64,000 bases of DNA from a virus. The DNA is taken from IMG/VR virus record IMGVR_UViG_3300028920_000022, positions 394,730-458,729 of that record; one strand, 5' to 3'. A model generated the notes under the pieces. That model did not search any database and had not been told where the DNA came from. It saw only the letters and a list, made by a program, of their open reading frames with translations. The translations under genes and the position numbers were made by a program. This document shows positions 43,613 to 62,373 of this stretch, piece by piece. Every line of letters starts with the position of its first letter. Within the stretch, counting starts at the first letter, position 1.

Positions 43613-43696
43613 TTATGCACATATCAGAGTTCTTTTGAGGATAATAGAAACCTGTAATGTTTGTTGATAATAATCATAGTAAGGGAATGGGGGCAT
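43613..43696 (-). CDS. ICA-tailed microprotein 2 (KRTLICA)
   Basis: 27 residues: an aromatic N terminus (MPPFPYYDYYQQT), a hydrophobic stretch and the tail LKRTLICA, codons ATA-TGT-GCA-TAA. No clear ribosome site; in-frame TTG and GTG codons lie upstream. Together with the next entries it forms the main cluster of ICA ORFs. Confidence 0.5.
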   Translation of the reverse strand: MPPFPYYDYYQQTLQVSIILKRTLICA

Positions 43697-43755
43697 AAAT
43701 ACGTACACAACCAATAATAATTGGTGGGTTTAGGTTTCTCGACAAAACCGTACTA

Positions 43756-43944
43756 TTATACCTGTAGATCTTCCGTTTTTTCTTCTTGAGCAGAGGCTAT
43801 TTTGATTATGCTTTTAGATTTTGCTAAATTGATTATTTTTTCATGGCTACGCTTTAGAACGTCAGTTACGTTATCACAATGAGAATAATCATTAATCAAA
43901 TTATTAACTTTTTCTGCTGCTTCAAAATATTCTTCGGAACTCAT
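43756..43944 (-). CDS. Small helical protein A
   Basis: 62 residues, two amphipathic helices (EEYFEAAEKVNNLINDY; VTDVLKRSHEKIINLAKSK). Resembles the adjacent gene in helix pattern, so the two may be diverged duplicates. Function unknown. Confidence 0.55.
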   Translation of the reverse strand: MSSEEYFEAAEKVNNLINDYSHCDNVTDVLKRSHEKIINLAKSKSIIKIASAQEEKTEDLQV

Positions 43945-43954
43945 AATATGCCCT

Positions 43955-44122
43955 TTATTTCTTTTCTTCCAATTCCCTAGCTTTTACATGTAGTTGTGCC
44001 GCAAGCTCTTTTAGAACTTCTTCAAGGTCTTTTAATCCGCCTTTGGCTTCATATTCTTTAGCTAAATCCCAAACGCGGTCTGCTGCCTCGCGGAAACATT
44101 CGTGTTCGTTTTTATGTCGCAT
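43955..44122 (-). CDS. Small helical protein B
   Basis: 55 residues from the ATG at 44122, all-helical and charged (CFREAADRVWDLAKEYEAKG). A TTG-TGC start at 44146, overlapping the ICA codons of the upstream microORF, is also possible and would mimic the MC- starts of other ORFs in this cluster. Confidence 0.5.
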   Translation of the reverse strand: MRHKNEHECFREAADRVWDLAKEYEAKGGLKDLEEVLKELAAQLHVKARELEEKK

Positions 44123-44136
44123 ATCATAATGATTTT

Positions 44137-44187
44137 TTATGCACAAATTATGGTCGTTCTATATAATTTTAGAATTAATTGGGTCAT
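44137..44187 (-). CDS. ICA-tailed microprotein 3 (RTTIICA)
   Basis: 16 residues, MTQLILKLYRTTIICA; ATGA overlap with the upstream ICA ORF. It is little more than a short hydrophobic lead plus the tail. Codons ATT-TGT-GCA-TAA. Confidence 0.5.
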   Translation of the reverse strand: MTQLILKLYRTTIICA

Positions 44188-44342
44188 GCGCAAATCAAAA
44201 CACGTCGGGGTGGAGTGGCGTTTTTTATAAGACGAAAAATATTAGCGTCTTCCTCTTGCTCTATTTCCCATTTGCAACGCTGAACTAATGTGTCCAATAA
44301 GTTCTTAGGCGCAGATGTGTATGGTACGAGAGAATCTGACAT
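44184..44342 (-). CDS. ICA-tailed microprotein 4 (RRVLICA)
   Basis: 52 residues: MSDSLVPYTSAPKNLLDTLV, an acidic helix and the tail PPRRVLICA, codons ATT-TGC-GCA-TGA. Its 5' part overlaps, in another frame, the 3' part of microprotein 5. Balanced charge and a plausible helix make this one of the more protein-like members. Confidence 0.6.
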   Translation of the reverse strand: MSDSLVPYTSAPKNLLDTLVQRCKWEIEQEEDANIFRLIKNATPPRRVLICA

Positions 44343-44376
44343 ATTTAATTAGAATCGGTAACGAGGTTAAGCACAT
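44305..44376 (-). CDS. ICA-tailed microprotein 5 (RTIHICA), overlapping
   Basis: 23 residues, MCLTSLPILIKYVRFSRTIH followed by ICA. The start ATG-TGC lies within the ICA codons of microprotein 6 and the last third overlaps microprotein 4 in a different frame. Two frames of the same DNA thus both end in R-T/V..ICA. It could be translated by re-initiation. Confidence 0.4.
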   Translation of the reverse strand: MCLTSLPILIKYVRFSRTIHICA

Positions 44377-44513
44377 ATATTTGTTGTTCTTTTGTTTCGG
44401 TCGATAATATTGAATCTTCTTCTTTTGACATCTGATATACGAATTGTGGGATTTTGAATTATTTCAAACGATGGAATTTGAACCCGCTTGCCATAAATTT
44501 TGTTTTTACTCAT
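44367..44513 (-). CDS. ICA-tailed microprotein 6 (KRTTNICA)
   Basis: 48 residues, strongly basic: MSKNKIYGKRVQIPSFEI, VKRRRFNIIDRN and the tail KRTTNICA, codons ATA-TGT-GCT-TAA. The basic, strand-like composition would fit nucleic-acid or ribosome contact. Head of the overlapping chain 6-5-4-3. Confidence 0.6.
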   Translation of the reverse strand: MSKNKIYGKRVQIPSFEIIQNPTIRISDVKRRRFNIIDRNKRTTNICA

Positions 44514-44533
44514 CCATAATTAGCGGACTGTAA

Positions 44534-44947
44534 CTATTTTTTGCTCGACTTCTTTTTCTTGAGTTTGCTGCTGTTTCTCCAAGTCTTTTTGCCCTCGAAT
44601 TTATCGCGAACTGAGGCGCAGAAAGCTTCTGGGCTATCCATATGCTTTTTCATTTTTTCTACGCACTCGGTAAAAGGATGTTCTTCACCCTTCATCATAG
44701 TACGCGAGTACTGTTTGACGGACTTTTCTTTCCATCCTGGAGGTTTCTTGCTCCAGGGTTTTCTTTTGGCTATTTTAAGGAAATAATCGGCTAAGGCTAA
44801 TATTGCCTTACTCTTTTTTGATGGAAAATGCTTTGTACAATAAAATCCACCAAATTCGTCACATAATGGATCCCCGGATTCACAGGGGTCATACCAATAA
44901 TTAGTTTCTGCTCCACAAATTGTACATTTACCCACAGTTGCCGCCAT
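44534..44947 (-). CDS. Zinc-finger protein with conserved phage C-terminal motif
   Basis: 137 residues. CTICGAETN and a FYCTKHF element form an N-terminal zinc site. The C-terminal part, HPFTECVEKMKKHMDSPEAF..., matches a motif often found at the ends of phage virion and regulatory proteins; a Lys-rich tail follows. Function unknown. Microprotein 7 lies just upstream. Confidence 0.65.
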   Translation of the reverse strand: MAATVGKCTICGAETNYWYDPCESGDPLCDEFGGFYCTKHFPSKKSKAILALADYFLKIAKRKPWSKKPPGWKEKSVKQYSRTMMKGEEHPFTECVEKMKKHMDSPEAFCASVRDKFEGKKTWRNSSKLKKKKSSKK

Positions 44948-44977
44948 AAAGAATTAAGAATACACTGAAATGCGGCG

Positions 44978-45247
44978 TTATGCACAAATGGTAGTTTTTC
45001 TCTTCGATCCACAAAAGAAACCGGTAGGAAAATATACCGGTTCCACAACTATAGGCATGTAGTCTCGAAAAATATTCGTTTTTTGTTCTACAAATTCTCC
45101 AAACGGAGTTTTTGTAAGAGTTTCGTTAGAAATTAATATTGGAGCTTTTTCGTAATAATACAACTTCCCATAGTGTTTTTCTTTAGGTTTTAGAAGCAAA
45201 CTAGTTGGCGAAACTACTAGGAGTTGTTGCGGAGGAGTTATAATCAC
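44978..45247 (-). CDS. ICA-tailed protein 7 (KRKTTICA)
   Basis: 89 residues, the largest member. GTG start overlaps the upstream stop (GTGA). Proline and aromatic rich (YYEKAPILI, EPVYFPTGFFCGS), ending SKRKTTICA, codons ATT-TGT-GCA-TAA. Because this one is clearly a real coupled gene, it supports the reality of the shorter ICA ORFs. Confidence 0.7.
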   Translation of the reverse strand: MIITPPQQLLVVSPTSLLLKPKEKHYGKLYYYEKAPILISNETLTKTPFGEFVEQKTNIFRDYMPIVVEPVYFPTGFFCGSKRKTTICA

Positions 45248-45822
45248 TTTTTGAATAATTCCATGGCATGTTCATTACAGGCTTCCCAAAACTCCTTAGA
45301 CACACAACAACTTTTTTCAATACCATTGATACAAAGTTTGATTTCAAGTTCTCCGGTAGAATCTAACTCTTTTCCTATACCAAAACCTATTTCGCTAGCA
45401 TCGTCACAAAACTGATCCGCCAATCTGTTTGCCCAAGATTCTATACTTTCGTCGTTTTGTTCAGCACATTTTCGTATAACTTCTCCGGCAAGCTTTTCCA
45501 TTTCTGTGGAAACCGGAGCTGTTATATCAAAGTTTTTAATATACTCTTCTAACTCGGTTAGTTTTTGCTCGATTTGAAGTTGTTCCCAATATTCAGCTGG
45601 CGCCGGTTTTCTGTCATAAAAGTCTAAACCCTTTTTTTCGTCATCGTCCATACACATTTGTATAGCTTCACCAAGGGCTTTTACTGATTGCTGAATCCCT
45701 TTTCCTTGGGAAACTATGTCAGTAGTTAGGCAGTGTCCTACCCAAGTGTCAGGAATATCTTCGCTGGGTGTGAAAACACAAACCAAAGACGGTTTGCTGC
45801 GTACGATCGGGCGCTTTTTCAT
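45244..45822 (-). CDS. HicB-like hypothetical protein
   Basis: 192 residues from the ATG at 45822 (a TTG at 45828 overlaps the upstream stop). The N terminus DTWVGHCLTTDIVSQGKGIQ with SVKALGEAI resembles the HicB-type partial RNase H fold used in antitoxins; the remainder is acidic and helical. No HicA toxin is adjacent. Confidence 0.55.
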   Translation of the reverse strand: MKKRPIVRSKPSLVCVFTPSEDIPDTWVGHCLTTDIVSQGKGIQQSVKALGEAIQMCMDDDEKKGLDFYDRKPAPAEYWEQLQIEQKLTELEEYIKNFDITAPVSTEMEKLAGEVIRKCAEQNDESIESWANRLADQFCDDASEIGFGIGKELDSTGELEIKLCINGIEKSCCVSKEFWEACNEHAMELFKK

Positions 45823-45824
45823 TG

Positions 45825-46421
45825 TCAAATTTTTGTTTGTTCTTTGTAGTTTATGCTACATTTTTCTTGTGTTAAAATCTGATTAAATTCGCTGTTAAGA
45901 GCATTTTCCACAAGATCCAAGTCTTTTCTAGGAAAATACACAGAGATATTTAGCTCATATTGTATTGGCCAAGTTATGTTGCCAGAACCATCTAAGATAA
46001 TGTCTGGATAACCGCTAAAATGCCAAGCGCCAAATGGATTGTTTAAGCTGGCGTATTTTTGTACTATGGTTAGGAACTTGTCTATCGAGGTTTTGTCAAA
46101 TTCAACCCATACCATGTTTACTGGCACCATATTATGGTGTTGGCAACTATTCAAAGTTTTGATTCCCAATTTCCAACACAGCAAAATTATATTTGCAATT
46201 TCTTTATCTATTTCGGCTGACATTTTGTCGTATTGAACGAGAACTGTTTTGTGTGGTTTAAGTTTTTGAGCCCTAATTTTCGTTTGTTCTACCCGCTCCA
46301 TCCACACTTTTCCACGTAAATCTGGAGGATCGCGTTTGATAATGATTTTGGTACCATCGCTCAAATAAATACATGTTGGCGATTGACGAGTAATGTATGC
46401 CTTAGGATTTTGTTTGCTCAT
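45825..46421 (-). CDS. Hypothetical protein, 198 residues
   Basis: Alpha/beta protein with TLNSCQHHN and VWVEFDKTSIDKF, a pattern seen in small phage proteins of unknown role. Contains a possible His-Cys metal site (CQHH). Downstream of a tRNA-like gene. Confidence 0.6.
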   Translation of the reverse strand: MSKQNPKAYITRQSPTCIYLSDGTKIIIKRDPPDLRGKVWMERVEQTKIRAQKLKPHKTVLVQYDKMSAEIDKEIANIILLCWKLGIKTLNSCQHHNMVPVNMVWVEFDKTSIDKFLTIVQKYASLNNPFGAWHFSGYPDIILDGSGNITWPIQYELNISVYFPRKDLDLVENALNSEFNQILTQEKCSINYKEQTKI

Positions 46422-46433
46422 TTTTTTTGTTTG

Positions 46434-46510
46434 TCGGGACGGCTGGAGTTGAACCAGCGTGCAACCAACTACTCTTTCAACCGCTTATCAGGCGGAGGAG
46501 ATACGTCCCG
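46434..46510 (-). tRNA. D-arm-less tRNA-like element (Ile GAT?)
   Basis: Acceptor CGGGACG/CGTCCCG and T arm GCTGG-TTCAACT-CCAGC are perfect, and CCGC-CTGATAA-GCGG is an ideal Ile(GAT) anticodon arm. Between acceptor and anticodon arm only about eight nucleotides remain, so a D arm cannot form, while the segment before the T arm is 22 nt. Either a highly reduced tRNA or a tRNA mimic; the second such element in the window. Confidence 0.6.
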
Positions 46511-46512
46511 CT

Positions 46513-46734
46513 TTATTTCACTTTTTTCAAACTCAATTCAAACTCAGCAGTTGTAGGCTGCCAAGCATCACGGGTAGTCTTGTCCCATACCAATATCCGA
46601 ATAACACCAGGAATAGTAGGATCAAGCCTGTGACTTTCTAAACCTATTGAATACCCTTGCCAATTGATACCATCTCCTAAATAATCTATTGCGGCTCGCA
46701 CAAAAGATTCTACTGAATCGTCTATTTTAGACAT
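46513..46734 (-). CDS. Small beta protein after coaC
   Basis: 73 residues, starting inside the coaC end. GINWQGYSIGLESHRL and GVIRILVWDKTTRD suggest a small beta sheet. No known family. Confidence 0.55.
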   Translation of the reverse strand: MSKIDDSVESFVRAAIDYLGDGINWQGYSIGLESHRLDPTIPGVIRILVWDKTTRDAWQPTTAEFELSLKKVK

Positions 46735-47378
46735 GCCTTAACCATTTCTGCTATATCTTTTACACCAGCCATAGCACCCATACCAACTGTTCCGCAAGCT
46801 AGTTTCTTAGATACAGGATATACTATGGTAAAATTATGTCTACGTACTTCGTTGTAGTTATATGCTTTATCGTAGTGTCGGTAGAAATGCCTTTCCCAAA
46901 GCACATTTAACTGTTCGGTTGTAATCGGATGCTCCCACATGTCTGTGTTCATAGCGGGAGCTACAATAATAGGTTTCGTAATAGGATAAGCTCTATAAAT
47001 ACAAGTTAATAGGTTGTCACATATTCCGTTTGCCATTTTTGCCAGCGTATTTGCTGTTAATGGCGCAATAACAAATACATTCGCCCAATCTTTTAACTCA
47101 ATGTGTAAAACTGGATCCCCTATATCCATCCATAACCATTCTTGTTCGTCAGTTAGAATATCAATACCGCCTCCCCAAAAAGTAAGCTTCTTACCTTGTG
47201 ATATCGGCAGGTTATCGATCAGCTGGCAACGAGTATCTTGGTCTCTGATTTGTTCAACAATATTAAGAGCAGACTTGGTAGCAACAACTTTAACGTCACC
47301 AAGCTTACTGAGTTCCGAATGCAGCTCTATTGTTTTTATTGCAGCAACTGATCCGGTTATTCCAAGTAGAATGTTCAT
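46722..47378 (-). CDS. coaC: Phosphopantothenoylcysteine decarboxylase (flavoprotein)
   Basis: 218 residues. FMN-dependent decarboxylation of 4'-phosphopantothenoylcysteine in coenzyme A synthesis. Signatures: ITGSVAAIK, the active-site His region HIELKDWANVFVIAPLTANT, NGICDNLLT, the PxMNxxMW clamp APAMNTDMW and LACGTVGMG with the catalytic Cys. In bacteria this is usually fused to CoaB; here the two are separate genes 500 bases apart. ATGA overlap with an upstream SNSSSSS gene. Confidence 0.88.
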   Translation of the reverse strand: MNILLGITGSVAAIKTIELHSELSKLGDVKVVATKSALNIVEQIRDQDTRCQLIDNLPISQGKKLTFWGGGIDILTDEQEWLWMDIGDPVLHIELKDWANVFVIAPLTANTLAKMANGICDNLLTCIYRAYPITKPIIVAPAMNTDMWEHPITTEQLNVLWERHFYRHYDKAYNYNEVRRHNFTIVYPVSKKLACGTVGMGAMAGVKDIAEMVKACLK

Positions 47379-47647
47379 TCTCGCTCCGAGAATGAAAGGG
47401 CTTTTTCTGGTATTCCCGCTTGTATGAATTTTTCCCGAAGATCCATGTTGTCCATAGAGGTATAGAATTCGAATTCATCTTTATTTTCAGAAAGTTCCCA
47501 GCCACGATCATAATCCTCCTTCAATATTGCTGAAAAGATTTTATCATAACCACGAACAATGGTTTTTTGAATGTCAGTAAGCCACTTCTTTTTTACAACA
47601 AAAGAAGAGCTAGAAGAGTTTGATACGAATCCGGTTCTAATTTTCAC
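47375..47647 (-). CDS. MKIRTGFVSNSSSSSF protein (5)
   Basis: 90 residues, GTG start in a GTGA overlap. The same 16-residue N terminus as the 30.4-32.4 kb cluster, then an unrelated basic/helical body (VKKKWLTDIQKTIVRGYDK). Located between coaB and coaC, 15 kb away from the others, which argues for functional reuse of the N terminus. Confidence 0.7.
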   Translation of the reverse strand: MKIRTGFVSNSSSSSFVVKKKWLTDIQKTIVRGYDKIFSAILKEDYDRGWELSENKDEFEFYTSMDNMDLREKFIQAGIPEKALSFSERE

Positions 47648-47877
47648 GTTATCACCTCTTTGATAGCACATTCACTACAAGACATTATTTCATTAACTTT
47701 TTTGATTTCTATGTTATTATACACTCCATAATTTGTTTTGTAGGTTATCGTTTGAGATGCATGGGTCGGCTCATTTTTGTCCAACAAATTAAACGCCTCT
47801 GTGCCACAGCATTCGCATATCCATTTGTAGACATGGGCATATAAACGTTCTTTTCTAATCCACACGTGGTCTTGCAT
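47644..47877 (-). CDS. Zinc-ribbon protein with AIKEVIT tail
   Basis: 77 residues: DHVWIRKE, YKWICECCGTEAF and MSCSECAIKEVIT. It keeps the H, CxxC and terminal-tail layout of the IKDIIE family with a more diverged tail. TAATG coupling to coaB. Confidence 0.6.
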   Translation of the reverse strand: MQDHVWIRKERLYAHVYKWICECCGTEAFNLLDKNEPTHASQTITYKTNYGVYNNIEIKKVNEIMSCSECAIKEVIT

Positions 47878-48551
47878 TAGTATGTCTCCAACAGATCAAT
47901 TAGTCGTTTATACAGGTTTTTTCTGTCCACCTCGTAACAATAATTGCCGGTTATTACATAGGCTCTTTCCCGTGACCATTCTAAACAGTTGGCAATCATA
48001 ATGTTAGCATTCGAGGCTTCTCGGCTCTTTTTAGCTATCTCTATTAATTCCTCATCTTTCATTCCAACTTGTAACTTAAATTTTACCAATATTCCCTTGA
48101 AACCCCAAGGGTCACGAATCTTATCTATTATTTTTTCTGTTGGTTTTAGTTTTAAAAACAAATCTGAATGGTTGGATTTAATTTTGGCGCTATTATCCAC
48201 AGATTTCATTGAAAAAGTACGATCTCCATATCTATAAGTCTCTTCTCCAACCAACACTTCGGATACTTGATAATCGCTTATTGCCGCAGAATGAATTATT
48301 ACATCATATTTCTTTTTAGTAATTTCTTTTTCCATAGCAGAATATAATTCGTCGTATGTTTTGAATGCTATAAATTTTACGTCAGGATCTGTTTCAGATT
48401 GCATTGGGGAGTTGTTTAACAGAGTTACTTTATGTTTTTTGATCGCTTCGTTTGCTATATTAACAGCTGTTCTGCCGCGAAATATGTTGGTTATCCCACG
48501 AACCTTATCTATAGGCACAAGGGTGCTTCCGCCGGTAATTAAAATTTTCAT
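47877..48551 (-). CDS. coaB: Phosphopantothenate-cysteine ligase-like protein
   Basis: 224 residues from the ATG in an ATGA overlap at 48551. ITGGSTLVPIDKVRGITNIF and GRTAVNIA at the N terminus, YDVIIHSAAISDYQ and the KIKS..LFLKLKPTEKIIDKIR motif with a late VKFKLQ are those of the CoaB half of Dfp. It joins cysteine to phosphopantothenate with CTP or ATP. Together with coaC two consecutive CoA steps are phage-encoded. Confidence 0.85.
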   Translation of the reverse strand: MKILITGGSTLVPIDKVRGITNIFRGRTAVNIANEAIKKHKVTLLNNSPMQSETDPDVKFIAFKTYDELYSAMEKEITKKKYDVIIHSAAISDYQVSEVLVGEETYRYGDRTFSMKSVDNSAKIKSNHSDLFLKLKPTEKIIDKIRDPWGFKGILVKFKLQVGMKDEELIEIAKKSREASNANIMIANCLEWSRERAYVITGNYCYEVDRKNLYKRLIDLLETY

Positions 48552-48742
48552 GTGGCTCTCAGTTCTAATTTGTTCCAAGTTTCAGTTTGACAAGGAGCCT
48601 TGGTGGTGTGTAAAATAGAAAATCTATATCCCCAATCTATTTTAATAATACAACTAGAAACTGTCCCAAAATCTTGTAAGTGTACGCATAGCGAAGTCTT
48701 CTGAATATCTATTATATTTTTCGTCTCTATTAGCTCCGACAA
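48548..48742 (-). CDS. Hypothetical protein, 64 residues
   Basis: TTG start; stop overlaps the coaB start (ATGA), which supports it. Body IKIDWGYRFSILHTTKAPC looks like a strand-rich protein. It competes for the same DNA with the MCTL... frame at 48654-48782, so one of the two may be spurious. Confidence 0.45.
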   Translation of the reverse strand: MSELIETKNIIDIQKTSLCVHLQDFGTVSSCIIKIDWGYRFSILHTTKAPCQTETWNKLELRAT

Positions 48743-48782
48743 TTAATCCGTCGTAACTCCAGGAGGTAATTAACGTACACAT
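48654..48782 (-). CDS. NRDE/TANGO2-like N-terminal fragment
   Basis: 42 residues, beginning MCTLITSWSYDGLIVGANRD with E-K-Y-N-R following. This matches the start of the NRDE (TANGO2) family: Met-Cys, then strand, then (A/S)NRDE-x-Y-x-R. The family is normally ~250 residues, so this is either a truncated remnant or chance. No continuation is found in other frames. Confidence 0.35.
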   Translation of the reverse strand: MCTLITSWSYDGLIVGANRDEKYNRYSEDFAMRTLTRFWDSF

Positions 48783-48810
48783 ATTTGGCAAACTATTCTG
48801 GTTGGAAACT

Positions 48811-50898
48811 CTATACTAGTTGTGCCAATTTGTAGTAGGAATACGCGCCTTTGTCAAGAGATTTCGCTACCCTGCGTAATTGATACGTTTTTTTCGTCAA
48901 ATCTTCAGGCTTTACTTCTGCTGACTCTGTAGGAAACTGCATTATTTCTGGAATCCTGTCGTATACGTCTTTATTTCTGTCGGGTATGGAATGCCATTTC
49001 TTCTGTTGCATCTCAAAACTGGTTAGATATACTTTTCTTTCTATTTCTTTTCCAAACTTGTTCATGGCATCTAACAATAATGGAACCCAGAACTTCTTTA
49101 TTGCTGATACCCACCACTTTAAGGCATTTAATTCTTTTTTGTTGTTTTGTATCTCTAAATTATGGAATGAGCTTTTAAATGTTTGCGCATCAATGTCTGT
49201 TTGTAAGTTGTCAATAATTATGTTGCCATCACTCATGGAAAAGCGAGCATACGCCAAAGATCCCGGATGATGCCCCTTTAGTTTTATATACTCTCCGTAG
49301 ACTTCTCGGGCTCCCGGTTGTGTTAGTTCAGCGTAATCTAAAAATTCTTTGCTTGGGTATATAGCAAAAACCTTGCCAGCATGATGCCACGCAGAATTCT
49401 CAATTCTAATGTCAACCGGCAAAGGTTTGAAACCCTTGAGTTTTGGGTATTTTTCTTGGAAATTGTTTAATTGCTTTTTGTGATCTTCGAAATAATTATA
49501 TAGGTCATGTAGGGAATCCAGACTTCTACTTTTAACCAGTACAGCGTTTTGTGCTTCCTTTTTCTGTATTCTCTTGATAACGAATTCAATCTGTTTATCA
49601 AATGGCATAGTGGGATTGGCGTTTACCTTTTTTATTCCAGCTTTTATTGCCGGAATAATAGACCCATCTATCATCTTTTCGTCTATGGGAAACATTTTGG
49701 GAAGACTATCTATTATCTCTGCTGCCTCTTCCAAATCTCTGTCTTCTATGTCAGATTCAACCCCTTCTTCCCGATCTTCTTCGTAACAGTTAGCACAAAC
49801 TAAATCTCCACGCTCTTCGTCATAATACATATCTTCTGCGTAGTGATATTCGTTACACCCCTCACAATAACGGTAAACCTCATTAAAACATTCTTGGTGG
49901 TAATAGTCGCCCTCATATTCTATTGTTTCATCATCGTCTTTTAAGACACCTTTATTACACGCTTCACATAAAGCAGCATGCTCCTCGCAATAGGTTTCTG
50001 TGACTTTTAGGTTCCAATGATAATTGTGCTGTGCATCGGGCTCTTTGCGTATGACACGCTCCACCTCAATTATGTCATCGTCATCAGTAGTATAAAAGTC
50101 ACAATCTTCGTGTTGACAATAATATCTATGATCCTCGGCACATGTTTCGCATAATGGGAGTAAAACTTTACTCTTAACCACCTCTATTGCTGCAAGCCCT
50201 TCCAGCGGTTTTAGAGTGTTTATTATTTTTTGACACTCTATGAAAAACGGTTTGTATAATTGTATTATTTTTTCTTCTAGTTGTGGTTTGGCATTATTAG
50301 GGTTTATAGCAGGATTAAGTTCCCTAGCCATTCTGTCGTTATATGTGTGGGGCAAACGGGGAATTTCTATTTTAATGTTATTGACAAACAAAGCAGCATA
50401 CAACTGACTTAGCACACCTTCTATTAGCTGAGCAAGATTGGACATTTTATTACGCATACATTGCAAAACAGTAAAATCAAAAATATAATCATCAGCCCTG
50501 GCTTTGCCCAAACAATCCTCTATGGCTGCTGGAAAATCAGCAATTGTTTTGTTTAGCGTGTTTTGCATCAAACCCAACATAGCATTATCCAACACCGGTC
50601 CCGTTCTTTTTTCTTCATTAATGTAATCTTCGTCAAACTCTTCTATATTTCTGGCGTCCCAGATGGGGTTTCCGGCTTTGTCTAAAATTGGGTTTCGACA
50701 ATCGTGACATAACCAATATGGTGTCCCATTCATCCTGCCATGATAGGGAGCAACCTCATCAGTTAATGTGGCACCTTCTCGGCGCTCACGGTTCCAAGAG
50801 CCGCTACTAATGTCTTTGAATGGAAACGTTAGTTGGTGTTCCCATTTAGCGCGCAAAATTAGCTTGTAGCCATTTGAAGCCGAATATACAAAACGCAT
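48811..50898 (-). CDS. Large protein with LIM/treble-clef-like zinc region
   Basis: 695 residues. CHDC near residue 60, then a dense Cys/His region (~255-385): LCETCAEDHRYYCQHEDC, YCEEHAALCEACNK, YYHQECFNEVYRYCEGC and VCANCYEED. Flanked by long helical segments and a C-terminal basic part (RNKDVYDRIPEIMQF). Similar Cys/His-rich proteins are common in giant phages and may be scaffolds or virion cargo. It contains no recognisable enzyme domain. Confidence 0.65.
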   Translation of the reverse strand: MRFVYSASNGYKLILRAKWEHQLTFPFKDISSGSWNRERREGATLTDEVAPYHGRMNGTPYWLCHDCRNPILDKAGNPIWDARNIEEFDEDYINEEKRTGPVLDNAMLGLMQNTLNKTIADFPAAIEDCLGKARADDYIFDFTVLQCMRNKMSNLAQLIEGVLSQLYAALFVNNIKIEIPRLPHTYNDRMARELNPAINPNNAKPQLEEKIIQLYKPFFIECQKIINTLKPLEGLAAIEVVKSKVLLPLCETCAEDHRYYCQHEDCDFYTTDDDDIIEVERVIRKEPDAQHNYHWNLKVTETYCEEHAALCEACNKGVLKDDDETIEYEGDYYHQECFNEVYRYCEGCNEYHYAEDMYYDEERGDLVCANCYEEDREEGVESDIEDRDLEEAAEIIDSLPKMFPIDEKMIDGSIIPAIKAGIKKVNANPTMPFDKQIEFVIKRIQKKEAQNAVLVKSRSLDSLHDLYNYFEDHKKQLNNFQEKYPKLKGFKPLPVDIRIENSAWHHAGKVFAIYPSKEFLDYAELTQPGAREVYGEYIKLKGHHPGSLAYARFSMSDGNIIIDNLQTDIDAQTFKSSFHNLEIQNNKKELNALKWWVSAIKKFWVPLLLDAMNKFGKEIERKVYLTSFEMQQKKWHSIPDRNKDVYDRIPEIMQFPTESAEVKPEDLTKKTYQLRRVAKSLDKGAYSYYKLAQLV

Positions 50899-56160: not shown

Positions 56161-56574
56161 CTATTTTATTACGTCCTCGATGATGAAGTTATTTTTCCAC
56201 CCATTGAACCACTTTTCGGCTTTTCTCATGCATAAAATCATGTCAAGTTCGACATTGGAAATGGCTTGGAGTCGGTTGAACCAGTCTAAAAACAATTCAC
56301 GAAAATCTTCGTTTATCTCTTCTGATTTTGTAACAGTGTAAGTTAATTTTCCAGGAATAATTTCATCACTTTTGCAAAACAAAGCAACCTCTAATTTATG
56401 TGCGTAGTGTTCAGGATTAGGATCATCGTAGTATCTTGTCCCTGATACCACTTCTGGAATTAATCTGTACAGGTGCATGTTTAAAACATAACCCGGGCAA
56501 TATATGGAAAACTCTGACCGATCAGCTTTTTGACCGCCTCTGTTTATGTTGATGGTAGTTATATATGGTTTCAC
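56161..56574 (-). CDS. Hypothetical protein with IIEDVIK tail
   Basis: 137 residues, GTG start after GAGGAAA. Not a zinc ribbon; mixed alpha/beta with EDFRELFLDWFNRLQAI. Ends KNNFIIEDVIK, a diverged IKDIIE-type tail, codons ATC-GAG-GAC-GTA-ATA-AAA-TAG. Overlaps the PQ-loop gene. Confidence 0.55.
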   Translation of the reverse strand: MKPYITTININRGGQKADRSEFSIYCPGYVLNMHLYRLIPEVVSGTRYYDDPNPEHYAHKLEVALFCKSDEIIPGKLTYTVTKSEEINEDFRELFLDWFNRLQAISNVELDMILCMRKAEKWFNGWKNNFIIEDVIK

Positions 56575-56833
56575 TTTTCCTCGGAAAATGTTTGTACCAA
56601 GCGATTACAGCTACAATGGAAAAATTCATCACATAATTAACCATCAGCACAAAGTCAGAAGAATAATTAGCTAGAGTATAGCAAATATAGCAGAACTCTC
56701 CAATCAGCCAAAGCCAAATTGTGAGGGTCGCCATCCCATTAGCATGTCCTTCTTTTATGGCTTTCAGCATCTGCGGAAGCCCAGAGAAGGAAAAGCATAC
56801 CATACCGATAAGCCCAACTACCACTAAATTCAT
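56522..56833 (-). CDS. PQ-loop (SemiSWEET-like) membrane protein
   Basis: 103 residues with three hydrophobic helices (about 3-18, 38-57, 62-80). LPQMLKAIKEGHANGMATLTI holds the PQ motif and the xSxxS-like turn of PQ-loop transporters; one triple-helix bundle is the bacterial SemiSWEET size, which dimerises. It may transport a small metabolite. tRNA-Sup lies 28 bases upstream. Confidence 0.65.
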   Translation of the reverse strand: MNLVVVGLIGMVCFSFSGLPQMLKAIKEGHANGMATLTIWLWLIGEFCYICYTLANYSSDFVLMVNYVMNFSIVAVIAWYKHFPRKSETIYNYHQHKQRRSKS

Positions 56834-56860
56834 AACGATAAATGGACAAAAATTAGTAGG

Positions 56861-56933
56861 CGGGTCCTGCGAGATTTGAACTCGCGTCTAAAAGCTTTAA
56901 AGGCTTTCGCTCTCGCCGCTGAGCTAAGGACCC
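56861..56933 (-). tRNA. tRNA-Sup (anticodon TTA), ochre suppressor
   Basis: A textbook cloverleaf: acceptor GGGTCCT/AGGACCC, D arm GCTCAGCGGCGAGAGC, anticodon arm AAAGC-CTTTAAA-GCTTT, variable TAGAC, T arm GCGAG-TTCAAAT-CTCGC, discriminator G. Positions 34-36 are TTA (56898-56900), which pairs with the stop codon UAA. The body looks like bacterial tRNA-Lys (GGGTCxTTAGCTCAG), so a UUU to UUA change is the likely origin. UAA is an ordinary stop for many genes here, so this is not genome-wide recoding. Confidence 0.88.
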
Positions 56934-57253
56934 AGAGCCAAATTAAGTTTGCTACATAGCTTCTTAGATTTCCTACCGGGCTCTAAAGCAATTGCTGTAA
57001 TCTCATCATCGAAATCTGGTTCTCTAAATATAGAAAACTTGATTTCCTTTTCTTTCGCCAATCCCATCAATTCCTTTAAACTATTCTCGTTTTCTGTTTC
57101 TAATATAACTAAGTAGTTTGAGGAATTGAACCACAACAAATCTTCCTGCGGATGATCGTTTACGAAAGCTCTCAGTGCATGACAGGATTGTGCTGCCCTA
57201 GCTCCTGGGGAAAGGTCTGTTCTAGTGACAATATACAGTTTGTTTTAAGCCAT
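56924..57253 (-). CDS. PTH2-type peptidyl-tRNA hydrolase interrupted by UAA at codon 3
   Basis: From ATG at 57253 the frame reads Met-Ala-stop(TAA, 57245-57247)-Asn-Lys-Leu then YIVTRTDLSPGARAAQSCHA, LVILETENENSLKELMGLA, SIFREPDFDDEITAIALEPG and ends at 56924. The ATG has a good ribosome site (GAGGATTGAC); the body has no usual start before YIV, only CTG. The domain matches bacterial PTH2 proteins, which release peptides from tRNA. Its 3' end overlaps the UUA suppressor tRNA by ten bases. Readthrough by that tRNA, CTG initiation, or a pseudogene are the options. Confidence 0.7.
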
Positions 57254-57254
57254 G

Positions 57255-57788
57255 TCAATCCTCGTCATCGTAGTCTGATTCTTCCGCAATTTCTTTCCGT
57301 TCTTGAGCACACGCCCTGAAATAACTGGATATCCTTTCTACTATAGTTTCTGGAATGTCTTGTTTACGAAACTTTTCTTTCCACCCTTCGTATGGTGTGT
57401 CGCCAGAAATCCAATGTCTTTCTCCAACAGTAAAACAGGGAGGGTCGCTATATATCCGACCTAAATCTGTTTCAATATATGGCCAAATCTCAAGTGGTGA
57501 GTCATTACAGCAGCCGCAGTTGTGTCTAATTTCGCAATCATTGACTCGGTTATTGAGTGAAGCAGAACAAAACCTTTCAGTTTTCCACCTATTTATATGA
57601 CGGCGCAAATCCGGGTATTTTTCGCTTCTTTTTATAAGCAAGTCTAGTTCTTGTTGTTTTTTCTGGACCTCTTTTTCTAATTCGTCTATTATACCCGGAA
57701 TACTGTCTTTCCAATTTTGGTATTCCCGTTGTTCTTCGGGGGTCATTTTAAAGTAGTCTTTGTCGGTATATTTGCTGTAGTCTTTCAT
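57255..57788 (-). CDS. Coiled-coil hypothetical protein with Cys cluster
   Basis: 177 residues, GGAGG upstream. Helical N-terminal 65 residues, then NDCEIRHNCGCCND and a Trp-rich middle (VGERHWISGDTPYEGW); acidic end YDDED whose codons include the ribosome site for the PTH2 frame. No known family. Confidence 0.6.
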   Translation of the reverse strand: MKDYSKYTDKDYFKMTPEEQREYQNWKDSIPGIIDELEKEVQKKQQELDLLIKRSEKYPDLRRHINRWKTERFCSASLNNRVNDCEIRHNCGCCNDSPLEIWPYIETDLGRIYSDPPCFTVGERHWISGDTPYEGWKEKFRKQDIPETIVERISSYFRACAQERKEIAEESDYDDED

Positions 57789-58108
57789 GCTGCCTCCTGA
57801 GATATTCTGTTAATTCGTACAAAGAGCCAATCACGAACTTCCTTCCACTCAGGTCCTGAAACAGAAAACTCAATATCAGAGGCTCTGCAAATATATTTTG
57901 CAATATCTAGAGCCAATCCGGTATAAAACGTAGTCCTTCCAGTTGAGCAATGTTTGTCTTCGTTCGTGGTTCGTTCCATAACCTCATAAGGCAAACCACG
58001 CAAAAAACCATATGCCAACAATCTACAGCGTTGTTTCCAACCGCCAGCTTTAGCACCTTCAATCACCCAAAGTCTAAGTTGAGCAATAGCATTTTTTCTT
58101 GTATTCAT
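57785..58108 (-). CDS. Hypothetical protein, 107 residues
   Basis: AGGAG precedes the ATG; ATGA coupling downstream. Helical, with WKQRCRLLAYGFLRGLPYEV and TTFYTGLALDIAKY. Predicted soluble. Family unknown. Confidence 0.55.
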   Translation of the reverse strand: MNTRKNAIAQLRLWVIEGAKAGGWKQRCRLLAYGFLRGLPYEVMERTTNEDKHCSTGRTTFYTGLALDIAKYICRASDIEFSVSGPEWKEVRDWLFVRINRISQEAA

Positions 58109-58242
58109 GTCAATCTCCTAAAAATCAAAAAGTTACAAACAGTTTTTCTGGAAACTTTTGTTTAGGAGGTCCACGAATTTGATTAATTTACGAGTCGTGC
58201 ATGTTGTATTTATTCTTGTTTATTAGTTGACAGCTCGACAAA
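58109..58242. other. Intergenic stretch with a possible UAA-interrupted micro-ORF
   Basis: On the minus strand ATG-CAC-GAC-TCG-TAA is followed in frame by INQIRGPPKQKFPEKLFVTF before TGA. It could be a second UAA-interrupted reading frame near the suppressor tRNA, but 20 codons are too few to be convincing. Otherwise nothing is seen. Confidence 0.25.
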
Positions 58243-58731
58243 TCATCTATGGACCCTATTAATTGCCACATCTGGCTTATCTGGCTTATCTGGCTTATCT
58301 GGCTTATCAGGTTTATCAGGTTTGTCTGGCAAAACAGGTGCAGGTTTATCTACGGAAGCCGTTCCAATAGCTTTAATTTTCTTATCTTTATTATTTTGAA
58401 ATGTTGTCAAACGAGTATCTATTTTTTCTTGAAACAAATTTATAATATCAAGAACATCTTGTTGTCTAGGTCTTTCTGGTAGTGGAATTTGCCGCATTTC
58501 TAGGTAACTATTGTTTAGCTCCTGTTTAATATTATTACAACAGCCAGACTGTATTTGGTTGTATAAAAGCATTAAATCTACTAATGCAGCTTTTGCGTCT
58601 TTATCTAAATTATCTTGTTTTACACCGTATATTCTTCTTCCAATGATTTTGCGCAAACTTTTGTATCCGGCAAGTAGCCTATTTCCGCTTCTTATCGTAT
58701 TTAGAATAATTATTTTATTTTTGGTGTTCAT
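58243..58731 (-). CDS. Helical protein with Asp-Lys-Pro repeat tail
   Basis: 162 residues. The first 120 are helical and basic. The C terminus contains PDKPDKPDKPDKPDKPD, an extended DKP repeat that varies by 9-bp units, then AINRVHR. The repeat may be a spacer or electrostatic brush. ATGA coupling to the zinc-ribbon gene upstream. Confidence 0.6.
   Translation of the reverse strand: MNTKNKIIILNTIRSGNRLLAGYKSLRKIIGRRIYGVKQDNLDKDAKAALVDLMLLYNQIQSGCCNNIKQELNNSYLEMRQIPLPERPRQQDVLDIINLFQEKIDTRLTTFQNNKDKKIKAIGTASVDKPAPVLPDKPDKPDKPDKPDKPDKPDVAINRVHR
58270..58329 (-). repeat. 9-bp tandem repeat encoding Asp-Lys-Pro
   Basis: At least six copies of TCTGGCTTA or TCAGGTTTA (plus strand) in phase with the reading frame. 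Four copies are identical, so copy number probably varies between isolates. Confidence 0.85.
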
Positions 58732-58916
58732 TCTATTATGTTTTTGATATCGAAATCCCTATCAGAAATGGTACAAGGTCTTAGCCTTTTGTGCGGAATA
58801 TAGAAATTTCCTTTATAGACAGTAGTTCGTAGTTGTCTTTTTGTTTTTCCACATTTTAAGCAACGTTTTTGATTCCAGCCATTGTCGGTTTTCCATTTGT
58901 GCTTATAGTTCGCCAT
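58728..58916 (-). CDS. Zinc-knuckle protein with IKNIIE tail
   Basis: 62 residues from the ATG at 58916. HKWKTDNGWNQKRCLKCGKT, a basic loop, CTISDRDFDIKNIIE. Minimal member of the IKDIIE zinc-ribbon family. Tail codons ATC-AAA-AAC-ATA-ATA-GAA lack AAGGA, again separating the tail from a ribosome-site role. Confidence 0.6.
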   Translation of the reverse strand: MANYKHKWKTDNGWNQKRCLKCGKTKRQLRTTVYKGNFYIPHKRLRPCTISDRDFDIKNIIE

Positions 58917-59526
58917 TTTTAGTTGCCTGCATGTAGTGGTTTGCAACCCAAGGAAGATATTTCCTCCACTCTTGGCTCTGTTCATAACGCTTTTTATCAA
59001 AAATAGGATTACGCAACTTATCCAACACGATAAGTTTTGTTGGGTCTAAAACACAAACTTCGTCACGATCACCTGAAGTAATAAACCCCTTTAATGCAGA
59101 ATACCCTTGGGATCGCAAAATTATATTTGTAGCCAAATGTTTGTTTTGAATTTCGCTTTTATCAATTTTATCGATTAATGGTCGTTTTTCGAAAAAACCC
59201 CAGCCTCTAACATCTAAAGCTTTTCCAATAAAATCAAAAATAAACATGTTTTGGTATAAACTTACCGATTGCATATTGCTTTCAAATGAACCTATGTCAT
59301 TATTTCTTAATCTTTCTATGACCCTGTCACTAATTTCATAACCGTAGATACCAACGGGATTAAGTCCAGGATATCTTGGACGTGTATTTATGCCCAATTT
59401 ATCGGCAGAAGTGAAGTGTAAATATTTTCCAACATACTTTTCCAGTGTATAAAATACATCTTCCAGCTCCACACCCTCACGTTCATATCGGGTTTTTCCC
59501 ATTTTCTCCATACCTTTATGTGTCAA
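58903..59526 (-). CDS. ART-like polyvalent-protein domain, stand-alone
   Basis: 207 residues if TTG at 59526 (TTGA overlap) is used; ATGs at 59511 or 59502 are also possible. KYLHFTSADKLGINTRPRYP, NPVGIYGYEI and later GYSALKGFIT..CVLDPTKLIVLDKLRN mirror the N-terminal domain of the giant protein (YLHFSE, TPVGIYGFPI, GYSGVHDPGT, AIDVIDIIKN). An ADP-ribosyltransferase-like fold is suspected from the pattern but catalytic residues are unproven. Confidence 0.6.
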   Translation of the reverse strand: MTHKGMEKMGKTRYEREGVELEDVFYTLEKYVGKYLHFTSADKLGINTRPRYPGLNPVGIYGYEISDRVIERLRNNDIGSFESNMQSVSLYQNMFIFDFIGKALDVRGWGFFEKRPLIDKIDKSEIQNKHLATNIILRSQGYSALKGFITSGDRDEVCVLDPTKLIVLDKLRNPIFDKKRYEQSQEWRKYLPWVANHYMQATKNGEL

Positions 59527-59756
59527 TATTGGATGGAAGGTTGTGTATCTATATCGTCCAGATTTTCTCTTATAAAATATAGATATCGCTCAAATTTCTT
59601 GGGGTTTTCTAGAAGTATTGTATATTCGGCGGGAGAAATTCCTAAGTATTCGTGTAGTGTCAAATTAGATTTGGACAAATTCCAATCTGTGATTTCGTCG
59701 TGGATATCCTCAAACTCAACCTCCCCTCTTAGGTAGCGTGTAAGAAAGTTTTCCAA
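59523..59756 (-). CDS. Small acidic protein
   Basis: 77 residues, TTG start supported by AAAAGGA upstream. Helical and acidic with LHEYLGISPAEYTILLENP, a motif resembling HTH-like antitoxin fragments or Xre helix 2-3 regions. Immediately upstream of the ART-like gene, so a toxin-antitoxin style pairing is conceivable but unproven. Confidence 0.5.
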   Translation of the reverse strand: MENFLTRYLRGEVEFEDIHDEITDWNLSKSNLTLHEYLGISPAEYTILLENPKKFERYLYFIRENLDDIDTQPSIQY

Positions 59757-59766
59757 ACAGTCCTTT

Positions 59767-60273
59767 TTAGAGTATCGTTTTAATTTCCGGCAAATTGCGG
59801 CAGGTTTGTTTATAATCTAAACCATAACCAATCACAAATTTATCTTCAATCGTAAAACCAAGATAATCTATTTTTACTTCTTTCACTGTTTTTGCCGGTT
59901 TATGCAGTAATGAACATAACTTTACGGACTTTGGTTTTCTAGCTGATAGCATATCCAAAAGATATCTGGATGTCAAGCCTGTATCTACTACATCTTCCAC
60001 AATTAACACATGTTCATTTTCTATGGAGAAATTTAGATCGTGTGTAATTTGTACGAGACCACTAGATTTATTATCATCACCATAGCTTTGAACACCCATA
60101 AATCCTATTTTCATCGGTGTTTTTATTTGTCGTGATAAATCAGCCGTAAATATAAAACTACCCTTCAAAATACAAATCAATACTATTGATTTCCCGTCGT
60201 AATCCTTGGTAATCTGTTTGCCTAACTGTTTGATTTTATTACGTATTTTACGTTCTGAAATTAAAGTTTTCAT
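59767..60273 (-). CDS. hpt: Hypoxanthine phosphoribosyltransferase
   Basis: 168 residues from the ATG at 60273, in an ATGA overlap with ICA microprotein 8. PRPP-binding motif VLIVEDVVDTG (residues ~92-102), KGSFIFTADLSR early, and VIGYGLDYKQTCRNLPEI late are HPRT hallmarks. It salvages hypoxanthine and guanine with PRPP to IMP and GMP. With pncB it makes the region a notable user of PRPP. Confidence 0.92.
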   Translation of the reverse strand: MKTLISERKIRNKIKQLGKQITKDYDGKSIVLICILKGSFIFTADLSRQIKTPMKIGFMGVQSYGDDNKSSGLVQITHDLNFSIENEHVLIVEDVVDTGLTSRYLLDMLSARKPKSVKLCSLLHKPAKTVKEVKIDYLGFTIEDKFVIGYGLDYKQTCRNLPEIKTIL

Positions 60274-60341
60274 GCGCAAATTGTAATCCTTCGTGGTCTG
60301 TTCGTTTGTAGCTCATTCAGATAGGCGTATTTGAAAAACAT
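60270..60341 (-). CDS. ICA-tailed microprotein 8 (RRITICA)
   Basis: 23 residues, MFFKYAYLNELQTNRPRRIT plus ICA, directly coupled to hpt by ATGA. Codons ATT-TGC-GCA-TGA. AAGGA lies in the tail codons 12 bases before the hpt ATG, so translation of this ORF may set hpt expression. Confidence 0.55.
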   Translation of the reverse strand: MFFKYAYLNELQTNRPRRITICA

Positions 60342-60360
60342 TTCGAAGATATTTTTTGAG

Positions 60361-60489
60361 TCAAGCACAGATTATGGTCCTTCGTGGGTGGTAATATCTA
60401 ATTGTTTGCCAATCATATTGACTCATCCAAATTTTGGAAGATATTAGGGACCAACTATTGATTTCTTTAAATACTTCTTTCTTGTCCAT
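60361..60489 (-). CDS. ICA-tailed microprotein 9 (RRTIICA)
   Basis: 42 residues: MDKKEVFKEINSWSLISSKI, aromatic WMSQYDWQTIRYY and the tail HPRRTIICA; codons ATC-TGT-GCT-TGA. The ~60 nt upstream (TTATGCTAACAAAAA..., ...AAAAGATTC) are about three-quarters identical to those at the start of microprotein 10. Confidence 0.55.
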   Translation of the reverse strand: MDKKEVFKEINSWSLISSKIWMSQYDWQTIRYYHPRRTIICA

Positions 60490-60532
60490 AACGAATCTTT
60501 TGTGTGAACTTAATGTGACGGTTTTATTTTTG

Positions 60533-61630
60533 TTAGCATAAAACCTTTTTAAAATAGTAAAAGAAACGAGGAAAATCAGATCCGGGTTGTTGTAATGACT
60601 TTTTAATTTTAATGATTTCCAGTTTACCTGCGGTTTTTTCTTCAATCCAGCGTTTGTTAGGATAAGCTAATTTTCTATTACCACTTCCTTTTTGGGGATG
60701 ATCGTTGTTATTATACGTTTCTATCTCAATAATAACAATACCATCAATTTTAACAAGATTACTAACTAATGTAAAAAACTTTTCTTGACTATCTCCAAAA
60801 TAGTGAAACGTGGATGCGCAAAAAACAACATCAAAATTTTCGGAGCTATCAAAATTTAAAGCGTTGCAACATATAAATTTAACATTTTGTTTTCTAAATA
60901 CTCGATTATTTAATCTATTAGCAATACACAAAACATCTGGATTCACATCTATACCTACAATACTGCCCGAAGTCTGCTTGGCAATTTCAAAACAAAAAAA
61001 GCCATTATTACAGCCCACGTCTAAAAATGACTGTCCATCAGTTATTTCTATTTCTGCCAACTGTAATTTCGTTGGTGACATTGAATCACCGCGGTGATTA
61101 AAATCTGTAAATGATTGGTAGTTAATGCCCTTTTTTAATTTAGAAAAATCTATTCGTTTTAAGTCATCATGAGATTTAATACAAGCTTCTGGTATTGTTT
61201 TTTCGTCGTCAGTATGAAAATTAATTAGATTACGTTTATAAACAAGGGTATGTTGTTTTTGGAACTGTAATCTGCATATTTCATTGCACCCTAGTTCTTT
61301 AAGAATTTCAATCAATTCTTTTTCTATAGAAGATATAACGTATCCCTCTATCAAAACATCTACTATGCCTTCGGCTTTCTCGATTCCCTTTTGCAAGATT
61401 TTTTTCGTCACATGCAGATATCTAGTTTTATTCCATCTAAGGCTAGAACAGTGTAGCTGAATGTTTCTAACGAAACCCACCACTTTTTCATATTGAGGAT
61501 CTCTAAAAAAAGTATCCAAACAATATCGTTGTACGTTAGGGTTGTGTTCTTTGTAATAATGAGTCCAAGTTGTTTTCCCAGAATTGGGCATTCCTGCACA
61601 TAAAAACACCCGTAAATATTGAGCTGTCAC
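60533..61630 (-). CDS. P-loop kinase fused to SAM methyltransferase
   Basis: 365 residues, GTG start with AGGG upstream. N-terminal P-loop GMPNSGKTTW (residues ~13-22) of the polynucleotide-kinase-like type, with a helical region; residues ~190-365 are a class-I methyltransferase (FLDVGCNNGFFCFEIA, GIDVNPDV, FDVVFCASTFHYFG). The pairing suggests phosphorylation and methylation of the same nucleic acid or small substrate, possibly RNA repair or modification. Such a fusion is uncommon. Confidence 0.75.
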   Translation of the reverse strand: MTAQYLRVFLCAGMPNSGKTTWTHYYKEHNPNVQRYCLDTFFRDPQYEKVVGFVRNIQLHCSSLRWNKTRYLHVTKKILQKGIEKAEGIVDVLIEGYVISSIEKELIEILKELGCNEICRLQFQKQHTLVYKRNLINFHTDDEKTIPEACIKSHDDLKRIDFSKLKKGINYQSFTDFNHRGDSMSPTKLQLAEIEITDGQSFLDVGCNNGFFCFEIAKQTSGSIVGIDVNPDVLCIANRLNNRVFRKQNVKFICCNALNFDSSENFDVVFCASTFHYFGDSQEKFFTLVSNLVKIDGIVIIEIETYNNNDHPQKGSGNRKLAYPNKRWIEEKTAGKLEIIKIKKSLQQPGSDFPRFFYYFKKVLC

Positions 61631-61761
61631 TGGTATGCCCTATCGCCATATTTCCTAAACAATCTAATCGATAACATTAGTGCTAATGCCTCTGTTTGTT
61701 TACTGGGCTCTAATACTCTTAAAATAATTTAGAATGCAGCAGACGAGAGTAAATTCGTTTT
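61631..61761. other. Intergenic stretch with gene remnant
   Basis: Minus strand encodes, without a good start, LEPSKQTEALALMLSIRLF and then RKYGDRAYQ stop, whose TGA overlaps the kinase GTG. The first part echoes QQTEALAFMLASPMF of the 9.3 kb gene. Probably a remnant or a 16-residue leader (MLSIRLFRKYGDRAYQ) coupled to the kinase. Confidence 0.3.
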
Positions 61762-61920
61762 TTAGGCACAGATTGTTGTGGTCCTTCTCTTGCCCCAATG
61801 TACATTAGAAAAAGCGGAACCCAGCATTAACATGGCTTTTTGCATCTTAATCAAGTTCTGTATATGGACATTGAGAATCTTTTCTGTGAATTTGTGGTGA
61901 CAAGTTGTTTTTGTTAGCAT
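61762..61920 (-). CDS. ICA-tailed microprotein 10 (RRTTTICA)
   Basis: 52 residues, MLTKTTCHHKFTEKILNVHI, a Met/Ala-rich helix and WGKRRTTTICA; codons ATC-TGT-GCC-TAA. Basic throughout. Its 5' end shares a repeated ~60-nt element with microprotein 9. Confidence 0.55.
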   Translation of the reverse strand: MLTKTTCHHKFTEKILNVHIQNLIKMQKAMLMLGSAFSNVHWGKRRTTTICA

Positions 61921-61936
61921 AATGTACAATTTGTGT

Positions 61937-62188
61937 ATGAGAATTTTTGTTACATTTCCTGAGGAAGATTTTGGTAGTGCTACGCTAGAAATACATGCAT
62001 CAACATCTTCTAATGTATTAGAACGATTACCTATAGCTTTGCGGAATATTGGTGTCAAATCTTTCTACGATTATATTTTTCAAAACGGAGATAAACTAAT
62101 TATTCAAGCTAAAATCGTAGACTATGACAAAAATAAACTTTCCTCTACAAAAGCTATAAACATACTAAAATCATTAAGCACAGATTAG
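61937..62188 (+). CDS. Small plus-strand protein
   Basis: 83 residues from the ATG at 61937 (MRIFVTFPEEDFGSATLEIH). Alpha/beta with conserved-looking strands. It is encoded opposite to the surrounding genes and its end overlaps the ICA ORF on the other strand by 15 bases. Function unknown. Confidence 0.5.
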   Translation: MRIFVTFPEEDFGSATLEIHASTSSNVLERLPIALRNIGVKSFYDYIFQNGDKLIIQAKIVDYDKNKLSSTKAINILKSLSTD

Positions 62189-62296
62189 AACTCTATTTGG
62201 AGCGATTTCTATTAGCCCATAATCAACAAGACAATCTAAGAGATTACTAAGAACATCTGTGCAATTCTTTTGGACTATTACATTTCTTACGCACAT
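62174..62296 (-). CDS. ICA-tailed microprotein 11 (NRVLICA)
   Basis: 40 residues, starting MCVRNVIVQK at an ATG that lies within the ICA codons of microprotein 12 (ATATGTGCGTAA). Helical middle (CTDVLSNLLDCLVDYGLIEI) and the tail APNRVLICA; codons ATC-TGT-GCT-TAA. Three Cys in total. Confidence 0.6.
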   Translation of the reverse strand: MCVRNVIVQKNCTDVLSNLLDCLVDYGLIEIAPNRVLICA

Positions 62297-62373
62297 ATTA
62301 AAACCCTTTTGGCGGGAACAATGCTAATTTCTATTATTTGAAAATCGTTGGGTATATAATTCCATCCATTCAT
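62287..62373 (-). CDS. ICA-tailed microprotein 12 (KRVLICA)
   Basis: 28 residues, MNGWNYIPNDFQIIEISIV plus PAKRVLICA; codons ATA-TGT-GCG-TAA. Its start overlaps the stop of an IKDIIE-tailed gene whose tail codons (AAGGA) supply the ribosome site. It links the two tail systems in one operon. Confidence 0.6.
   Translation of the reverse strand: MNGWNYIPNDFQIIEISIVPAKRVLICA

Follow-up and report, generated by a model that had tools for sequence, protein, structure and literature searches.

Short open reading frames of a phage G-type jumbo phage include probable capsid-protein segments and share a capsid-like C-terminal tail

The stretch of DNA analysed here, 64,000 nucleotides in length (the window), is the end part (G000:C1:394730-458729) of the 458,729-base virus record IMGVR_UViG_3300028920_000022 (G000) and carries twelve minus-strand open reading frames (ORFs) that end in the residues ICA directly before the stop codon. 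These ORFs very probably belong to a set that includes fragments derived from the major capsid protein (MCP), closed by a tail that itself resembles the MCP C-terminus. The MCP gene of G000 (252661-253740) matches the phrog_2522 major head protein (E=1e-78), PDB 6WKK (E=2.5e-105) and, at 52% identity, gp27 of Bacillus phage G, and on the strength of these matches G000 is classed as a phage G-type jumbo phage. Its own lineage comprises G000, G001 (a record of 38 kb, locus L033) and G002 (26 kb, locus L034), with G005 (435 kb) as a distant relative; the four together hold 38 tail ORFs. About fifteen of these are in the G000 genome, where three additional tails lie outside the window on the plus strand (RRVLICA at 166900, KSVIICA at 206393 and NRVLICA at 206526).

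All twelve ORFs of the original prediction were located at their predicted positions. Frames of at least 15 codons ending in a basic residue and ICA-stop number 12 in the window, against a mean of 0.1 and a maximum of 1 in 60 dinucleotide-preserving shuffles, so that such ends are far from equally frequent in shuffled sequence and a chance origin is ruled out. Across 27 own-lineage tails, isoleucine is encoded by ATC (11), ATT (11) or ATA (5) and cysteine by TGT (20) or TGC (7), the latter in the genome-wide ratio; all four alanine codons occur, and the stops are TAA (17), TGA (5) and TAG (5). Because the tail codons vary only synonymously, constraint acts on the peptide, as had been proposed. 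A DNA element such as a promoter or attachment site was rejected, since third positions follow genome codon use apart from some excess of ATC (11 of 27 tails against 13% genome-wide). The window also contains a tRNA with anticodon TTA, which reads UAA (56859-56933, minus strand), and is a candidate ochre suppressor; yet long ORFs use TAA more often than either other stop and tails end in TGA and TAG too, and readthrough of TAA was discarded as an explanation on these grounds.

At least 8 of the 38 bodies preceding the tails are MCP segments, and inside clusters they follow the order of the MCP. The body of ORF 44367 (44367..44513; 48 amino acids, aa) is identical to MCP residues 143-179 at 22 of 37 positions (profile E=3e-17), that of ORF 44184 (44184..44342; 52 aa) matches residues about 175-203 (profile E=1e-5) and that of ORF 60361 (60361..60489; 42 aa) matches MCP profile positions 202-232 (p=0.003 by shuffling), while the body of ORF 60270 (60270..60368; 32 aa), which has a GTG start within the tail of ORF 60361, weakly resembles positions 18-34 (p=0.03). 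The earlier claim that the bodies are unrelated therefore fails for the first three and probably for the fourth, and stands for most of the others, which have no detectable source. G005 presents the same picture: three consecutive overlapping ORFs match profile positions 53-82, 127-159 and 167-182 in that order, the third more weakly (p=0.043), and ORF 155738 matches positions 77-91. We scored 31 bodies after removal of their last four residues, with 300 shuffles per body, and observed that 8 exceeded all 300 shuffles and 12 reached p<0.05; the combined Fisher p of 3e-11 for similarity to the MCP is indicative only, because orthologs were counted separately and are not independent. Each ORF spans at most about 45 of the 339 profile positions and none contains a full-length capsid fold; they encode fragments rather than capsid proteins. 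Named from the fold, the segments represented appear to be the long-loop segment, the helix following it, the N-arm, the 202-232 region and the C-terminal region. Searches of the G000 genome and of G005 gave no source proteins at convincing E-values for the remaining bodies. Readthrough that would fuse ORFs 44367 and 44184 into one MCP-like protein was rejected: they share a frame, but two stops lie between them and their MCP ranges overlap.

The bodies have been maintained as proteins. ORF 44367 has orthologs at G001:7462 and G005:145797, and ORF 44184 at G001:7276 and probably G005:145684, the G001 orthologs being 67% and 52% identical, respectively. Between orthologous body pairs pN/pS, the nonsynonymous relative to the synonymous change, is 0.29-0.58, the synonymous sites being saturated or nearly so, and the orthologous bodies are under purifying selection. 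The fragments resemble the MCPs of other phages about as much as their own, indicating that they are not recent copies. Short, divergent fragments and the presence of an endonuclease ORF adjoining the MCP gene could also be accounted for by decaying, functionless duplicates of the capsid gene; however, purifying selection contradicts this explanation, the tail is invariant while synonymous change is free, and the arrangement is conserved in synteny in G000, G001 and G005, all of which make decay highly improbable. The adjoining ORF (G000:253758-255695; L015:16158-18095) lies just downstream of the MCP gene and encodes 645 aa, including a LAGLIDADG endonuclease domain and, towards the C-terminus, a region like LPG_synthase_C.

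The tail looks like the capsid C-terminus with glycine changed to cysteine, because the MCP is the best-scoring C-terminus in the G000 genome and because one tail ORF aligns with the MCP end in register. MCP C-termini in the phage G-type group are mostly KSVVIGA, KSVIIGA or KSTIIGA, the last being that of G000. Among the 363 ORFs of the G000 genome with 150 codons or more, the MCP has the C-terminus that scores highest against a position-specific matrix built from the tails. The in-register case is G001:8895, the ortholog of ORF 44978 (44978..45247; 89 aa, GTG start): it ends GWFVHEIQGTFTPGWFGNIPFRRSVLICA, against the MCP consensus end GWVVSEIIGIGIVNPRGVAAGRKSVVIGA, and the 21 residues preceding its tail likewise match the MCP C-terminus in register. 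When the last eight residues were left out, 4 of 5000 shuffles attained its in-register score, and of 1,885 ORFs the MCP alone did so. The cysteine that replaces the penultimate glycine of the MCP is constant in the tails. Judged by sequence resemblance, the tail is likely to share its descent with the MCP C-terminus in the lineage of G000, which in G005 is only suggested.

Scanning IMG/VR with degenerate codons gave 28 loci, only two of which, L033 (G001) and L034 (G002), contain clusters; G001 carries eight ICA tails and G002 four, leaving out of the count a G001 frame of 17 codons that ends VAICA and has no start codon. At the syntenic place G005 has five tandem ORFs ending FLVCA or FIVCA, and its total of 11 tails of the form [IVL]CA includes nine VCA. 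Neither the flanking-gene loci nor a second viral tail scan yielded additional clusters, nor did a genome-contig tail scan among the matches listed, and the UvrD helicase and methyltransferase used as baits found no relatives. ICA ends occur in background numbers only in fifteen other huge-phage records and phage G, and none of 29 records searched apart from G005 has more than two VCA ends. The expected conservation in relatives was thus borne out by orthologs in G001 and G005 and by the syntenic clusters of G000, G001 and G005. Orthologous bodies are ICA-tailed in one lineage and VCA-tailed in the other, and the residues preceding ICA also differ between lineages. Because the tail type switches by lineage on orthologous bodies, as if tracking a lineage-specific partner, a docking tag for one partner stays compatible with the data.

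Beyond the MCP gene itself, G001, G006, G010, G011, G014 and G018 carry additional MCP segments. A terminase control gave one match per genome (full length in ten genomes, a weak partial match in phage G) and no extra ORFs; it is MCP segments, not terminase segments, that recur. As far as the sequences indicate, capsid fragments recur in these phages, the version with a shared C-terminal tail being that of G000, G001, G002 and G005. In G001 a tail-less ORF of 57 aa (L055, about 8735-8907, minus strand), immediately downstream of a tRNA-like sequence, matches MCP profile positions 40-83. In G006, a 480-kb phage, an MCP C-terminal segment (MTDPKKVELGFTVKEKIGIGIVNPRGIYRS) forms the first 30 residues of a protein (L166:6678-7469) that, judged from its sequence, is glycosyltransferase-like. 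G010 has three tandem MCP-fragment ORFs (L295:4391-5443) with the common N-terminal motif M[KR]xP[LF][IV]I, followed by what appear to be tRNA genes; the MCP N-terminus was considered as the source of this motif and found no support. G011 carries two mosaics of several MCP segments with zinc-ribbon-looking CxxC pairs (L298:4806-5456 and L299:4754-5323), one of them, weakly supported, with the segments in scrambled order, and the extra segment of G014 corresponds to MCP 263-338.

The tail ORFs are tightly packed. Because the start codon of 11 of the 38 falls within the tail codons of the tail ORF before it, as an ATG in NTATGTGC or GCATGA or a GTG in TGTGC, the arrays are probably translationally coupled. 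In the window, the ATG of ORF 62174 (62174..62296; 40 aa) sits in the tail codons of ORF 62287 (62287..62373; 28 aa, MNGWNYIPNDFQIIEISIVPAKRVLICA), which has similar ORFs at G001:5873 and G005:375521; that of ORF 44305 (44305..44376; 23 aa), with a similar ORF in the same place at G001:7388, lies within the tail of ORF 44367, and that of ORF 44137 (44137..44187; 16 aa, MTQLILKLYRTTIICA), which is almost tail only, within the tail of ORF 44184. The stop of ORF 60270 overlaps the ATG of a phosphoribosyltransferase gene. G001 shares this overlap between tail ORF and gene start, and the tail with it, although the body there is a different one (13 aa, against 32 aa in G000). These overlaps, and the kept tail before the phosphoribosyltransferase gene in particular, could reflect leader or arrest peptides, in which the protein would not be the product that matters: ribosome stalling or slow termination at the tail would couple translation to the next gene. 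We regard this as improbable, given that the bodies are conserved as proteins and MCP-derived and that for several tail ORFs no gene begins within or next to the tail; ORF 43613 (43613..43696; 27 aa, MPPFPYYDYYQQTLQVSIILKRTLICA), for instance, is followed by a tRNA gene. A fixed overlap or spacing with a regulated downstream gene was not found either, the gaps outside the 11 overlaps being variable. The two other ORFs of the window are ORF 61762 (61762..61920), of 52 aa counted from ATG and with the tail RRTTTICA, which an upstream TTG would lengthen, and ORF 24508 (24508..24648; 46 aa), which is not MCP-like, is followed downstream by an AAA ATPase gene (23639-24460) and has a similar ORF at G005:142081 likewise ending in ICA.

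Coupled arrays of capsid segments that end in a capsid-like C-terminus and are selected as proteins suggest that the products compete with the MCP for a partner. Our leading proposal, which we hold tentatively, is that the tail ORFs encode real small phage proteins, capsid-mimic microproteins, serving as decoys for capsid-sensing immunity. Their products would act in trans as soluble capsid mimics and compete with the MCP for some partner that recognizes it; the bodies would copy MCP surfaces, the tail would copy the free MCP C-terminus (KSVVIGA/KSTIIGA) with the penultimate glycine replaced by cysteine, and the tandem coupled genes would raise the dose. The lead candidate for the partner would be a host immune sensor of capsid protein, ranked first because of the gene neighbourhood and because such sensors exist: CapRel senses the MCP (PMC9712102), and Thoeris, with ThsB1/B2, senses capsids and depletes NAD+ (PMC11312562). 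The clusters are surrounded by non-structural genes, with a macro-domain-like gene (62837-63364; E=9e-4, narrowly missing the Pfam cut-off), a methyltransferase and the phosphoribosyltransferase as neighbours, and the window further holds a NAMPT-like gene (6135-7277) and an ADP-ribosylglycohydrolase-like gene (8305-9321); a role of the NAMPT-like, ADP-ribosylglycohydrolase-like and macro-domain-like genes in NAD or ADP-ribose counter-defence is possible.

Several observations weigh against the decoy proposal. About 26 of the 38 bodies have no detectable similarity to the MCP and some members are nearly tail only, so body mimicry is not the whole story; decoys alone leave the invariant cysteine unexplained; the MCP of G005 ranks only 65th of 346 ORFs against the G005 tails and ends KSTLVG without the final alanine; and the AlphaFold model of the MCP is of too low confidence (predicted local distance difference test, pLDDT, 38) to place the MCP C-terminus.

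The same segments and C-terminal mimic would also fit MCP contact surfaces, and the tail ORF products may instead be capsid-assembly modulators or minor virion components that bind the capsid protein, portal or scaffold of the phage or of a competitor, resulting in tuned assembly, poisoned assembly of competing phages or incorporation into the head. The fusion of an MCP C-terminal segment to the glycosyltransferase-like protein of G006, as if for capsid targeting, points the same way. We consider assembly modulation less likely than immune decoys, since some 190 kb separate the window clusters from the MCP gene, which is on the opposite strand, many members lack an MCP body and the fragments are no closer to their own MCP than to those of other phages. 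A C-terminal degron, through which a ClpX-like unfoldase working with host or phage ClpP would degrade the small proteins or any MCP-like or sensor proteins bound to them, ranks lower still and is unlikely. ICA and VCA ends resemble ssrA -LAA, the basic residues resemble MuA RRKKAI, and G000 encodes ClpP (G000:160404-160946); however, ClpP is equally present in relatives without tails (two in tandem in several related phages), the ClpX-type C-terminal domain PF10431 was not found in G000, G001, G002 or G005, the invariant Cys-Ala is stricter than degrons usually need and the likeness to the MCP C-terminus would be left unexplained. In phage G a ClpX-type C-terminal domain lies near ClpP. Leader peptides would come last in this order. 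Stated more broadly, that arrays in the phage G MCP group pair MCP segments with a lineage-specific MCP C-terminus, act as decoys or as inhibitors of competitors' assembly and carry a tail that follows a partner in trans, the proposal is plausible, if short of probable.

Other features of the record stand apart from the ICA tails. One gene of the relative G001 (G001:26663-28522) matches the window's end together with the first 1.4 kb of the G000 record; since it bridges both record ends, circularity or circular permutation of the record is probable. The large terminase subunit lies at 229.8-231.7 kb. A different C-terminal motif, resembling [TS]C[ND][ED]xII[RK][ED]II[EK], is common to about 100 small ORFs, many of which have CxxC pairs. 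They lie at G000:1.6-9.4 kb, 27-48 kb and 385-388 kb and are scattered elsewhere (L003-L005, L022, window 62370-62840), occur in G001 and G005 as well, and include some whose bodies look unrelated to the rest. Embedded promoters were rejected as the source of these IIE/IIK tails, whose codon variation points to a peptide-level constraint.

Several bacterial immune systems respond to capsid proteins as their trigger, and we found no description in the open-licence literature of phages encoding sets of capsid-segment peptides. If the products are decoys or assembly poisons, they would constitute a new counter-defence or phage-competition strategy and would reveal which MCP surfaces are under recognition, with the strict three-residue tail, changing lineage-wide, as a direct handle on the partner. 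The closest known protein is the gp27-type MCP of phage G (PDB 6WKK; phrog_2522), to segments of which several bodies are homologous. The tail resembles the C-terminus of metagenomic members of this family, phage G gp27 itself lacking a KSVVIGA end; unlike these MCPs, the tail ORFs are separate, span about 13-112 aa, are unable to form the fold alone and carry cysteine in place of glycine in the tail. Recognition of the MCP surface would be common to our proposal and to capsid-sensing immunity as in CapRel-SJ46 and staphylococcal Thoeris ThsB1/B2; those are host sensors, whereas here the phage would carry the mimics. The ssrA -LAA and MuA RRKKAI ends are C-terminal signals of the ClpX degron class, and like them the tails are short and hydrophobic, end in alanine and, in the lineage of G000, follow basic residues, but the tails have an invariant cysteine and resemble the MCP C-terminus. 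Arbitrium AimP also consists of a short phage ORF with a conserved C-terminal hexapeptide-like end; it is a single secreted, imported pre-propeptide of temperate phages, in contrast to about 15 ORFs per genome with MCP-derived bodies and, according to the original prediction, no apparent signal peptides. Fv1, endogenous Gag and satellite capsid interference offer an analogue for assembly modulation, being capsid-derived proteins acting in trans, yet these are single larger proteins of hosts or satellites, whereas the tail ORFs form arrays of peptide-sized segments in the phage itself.

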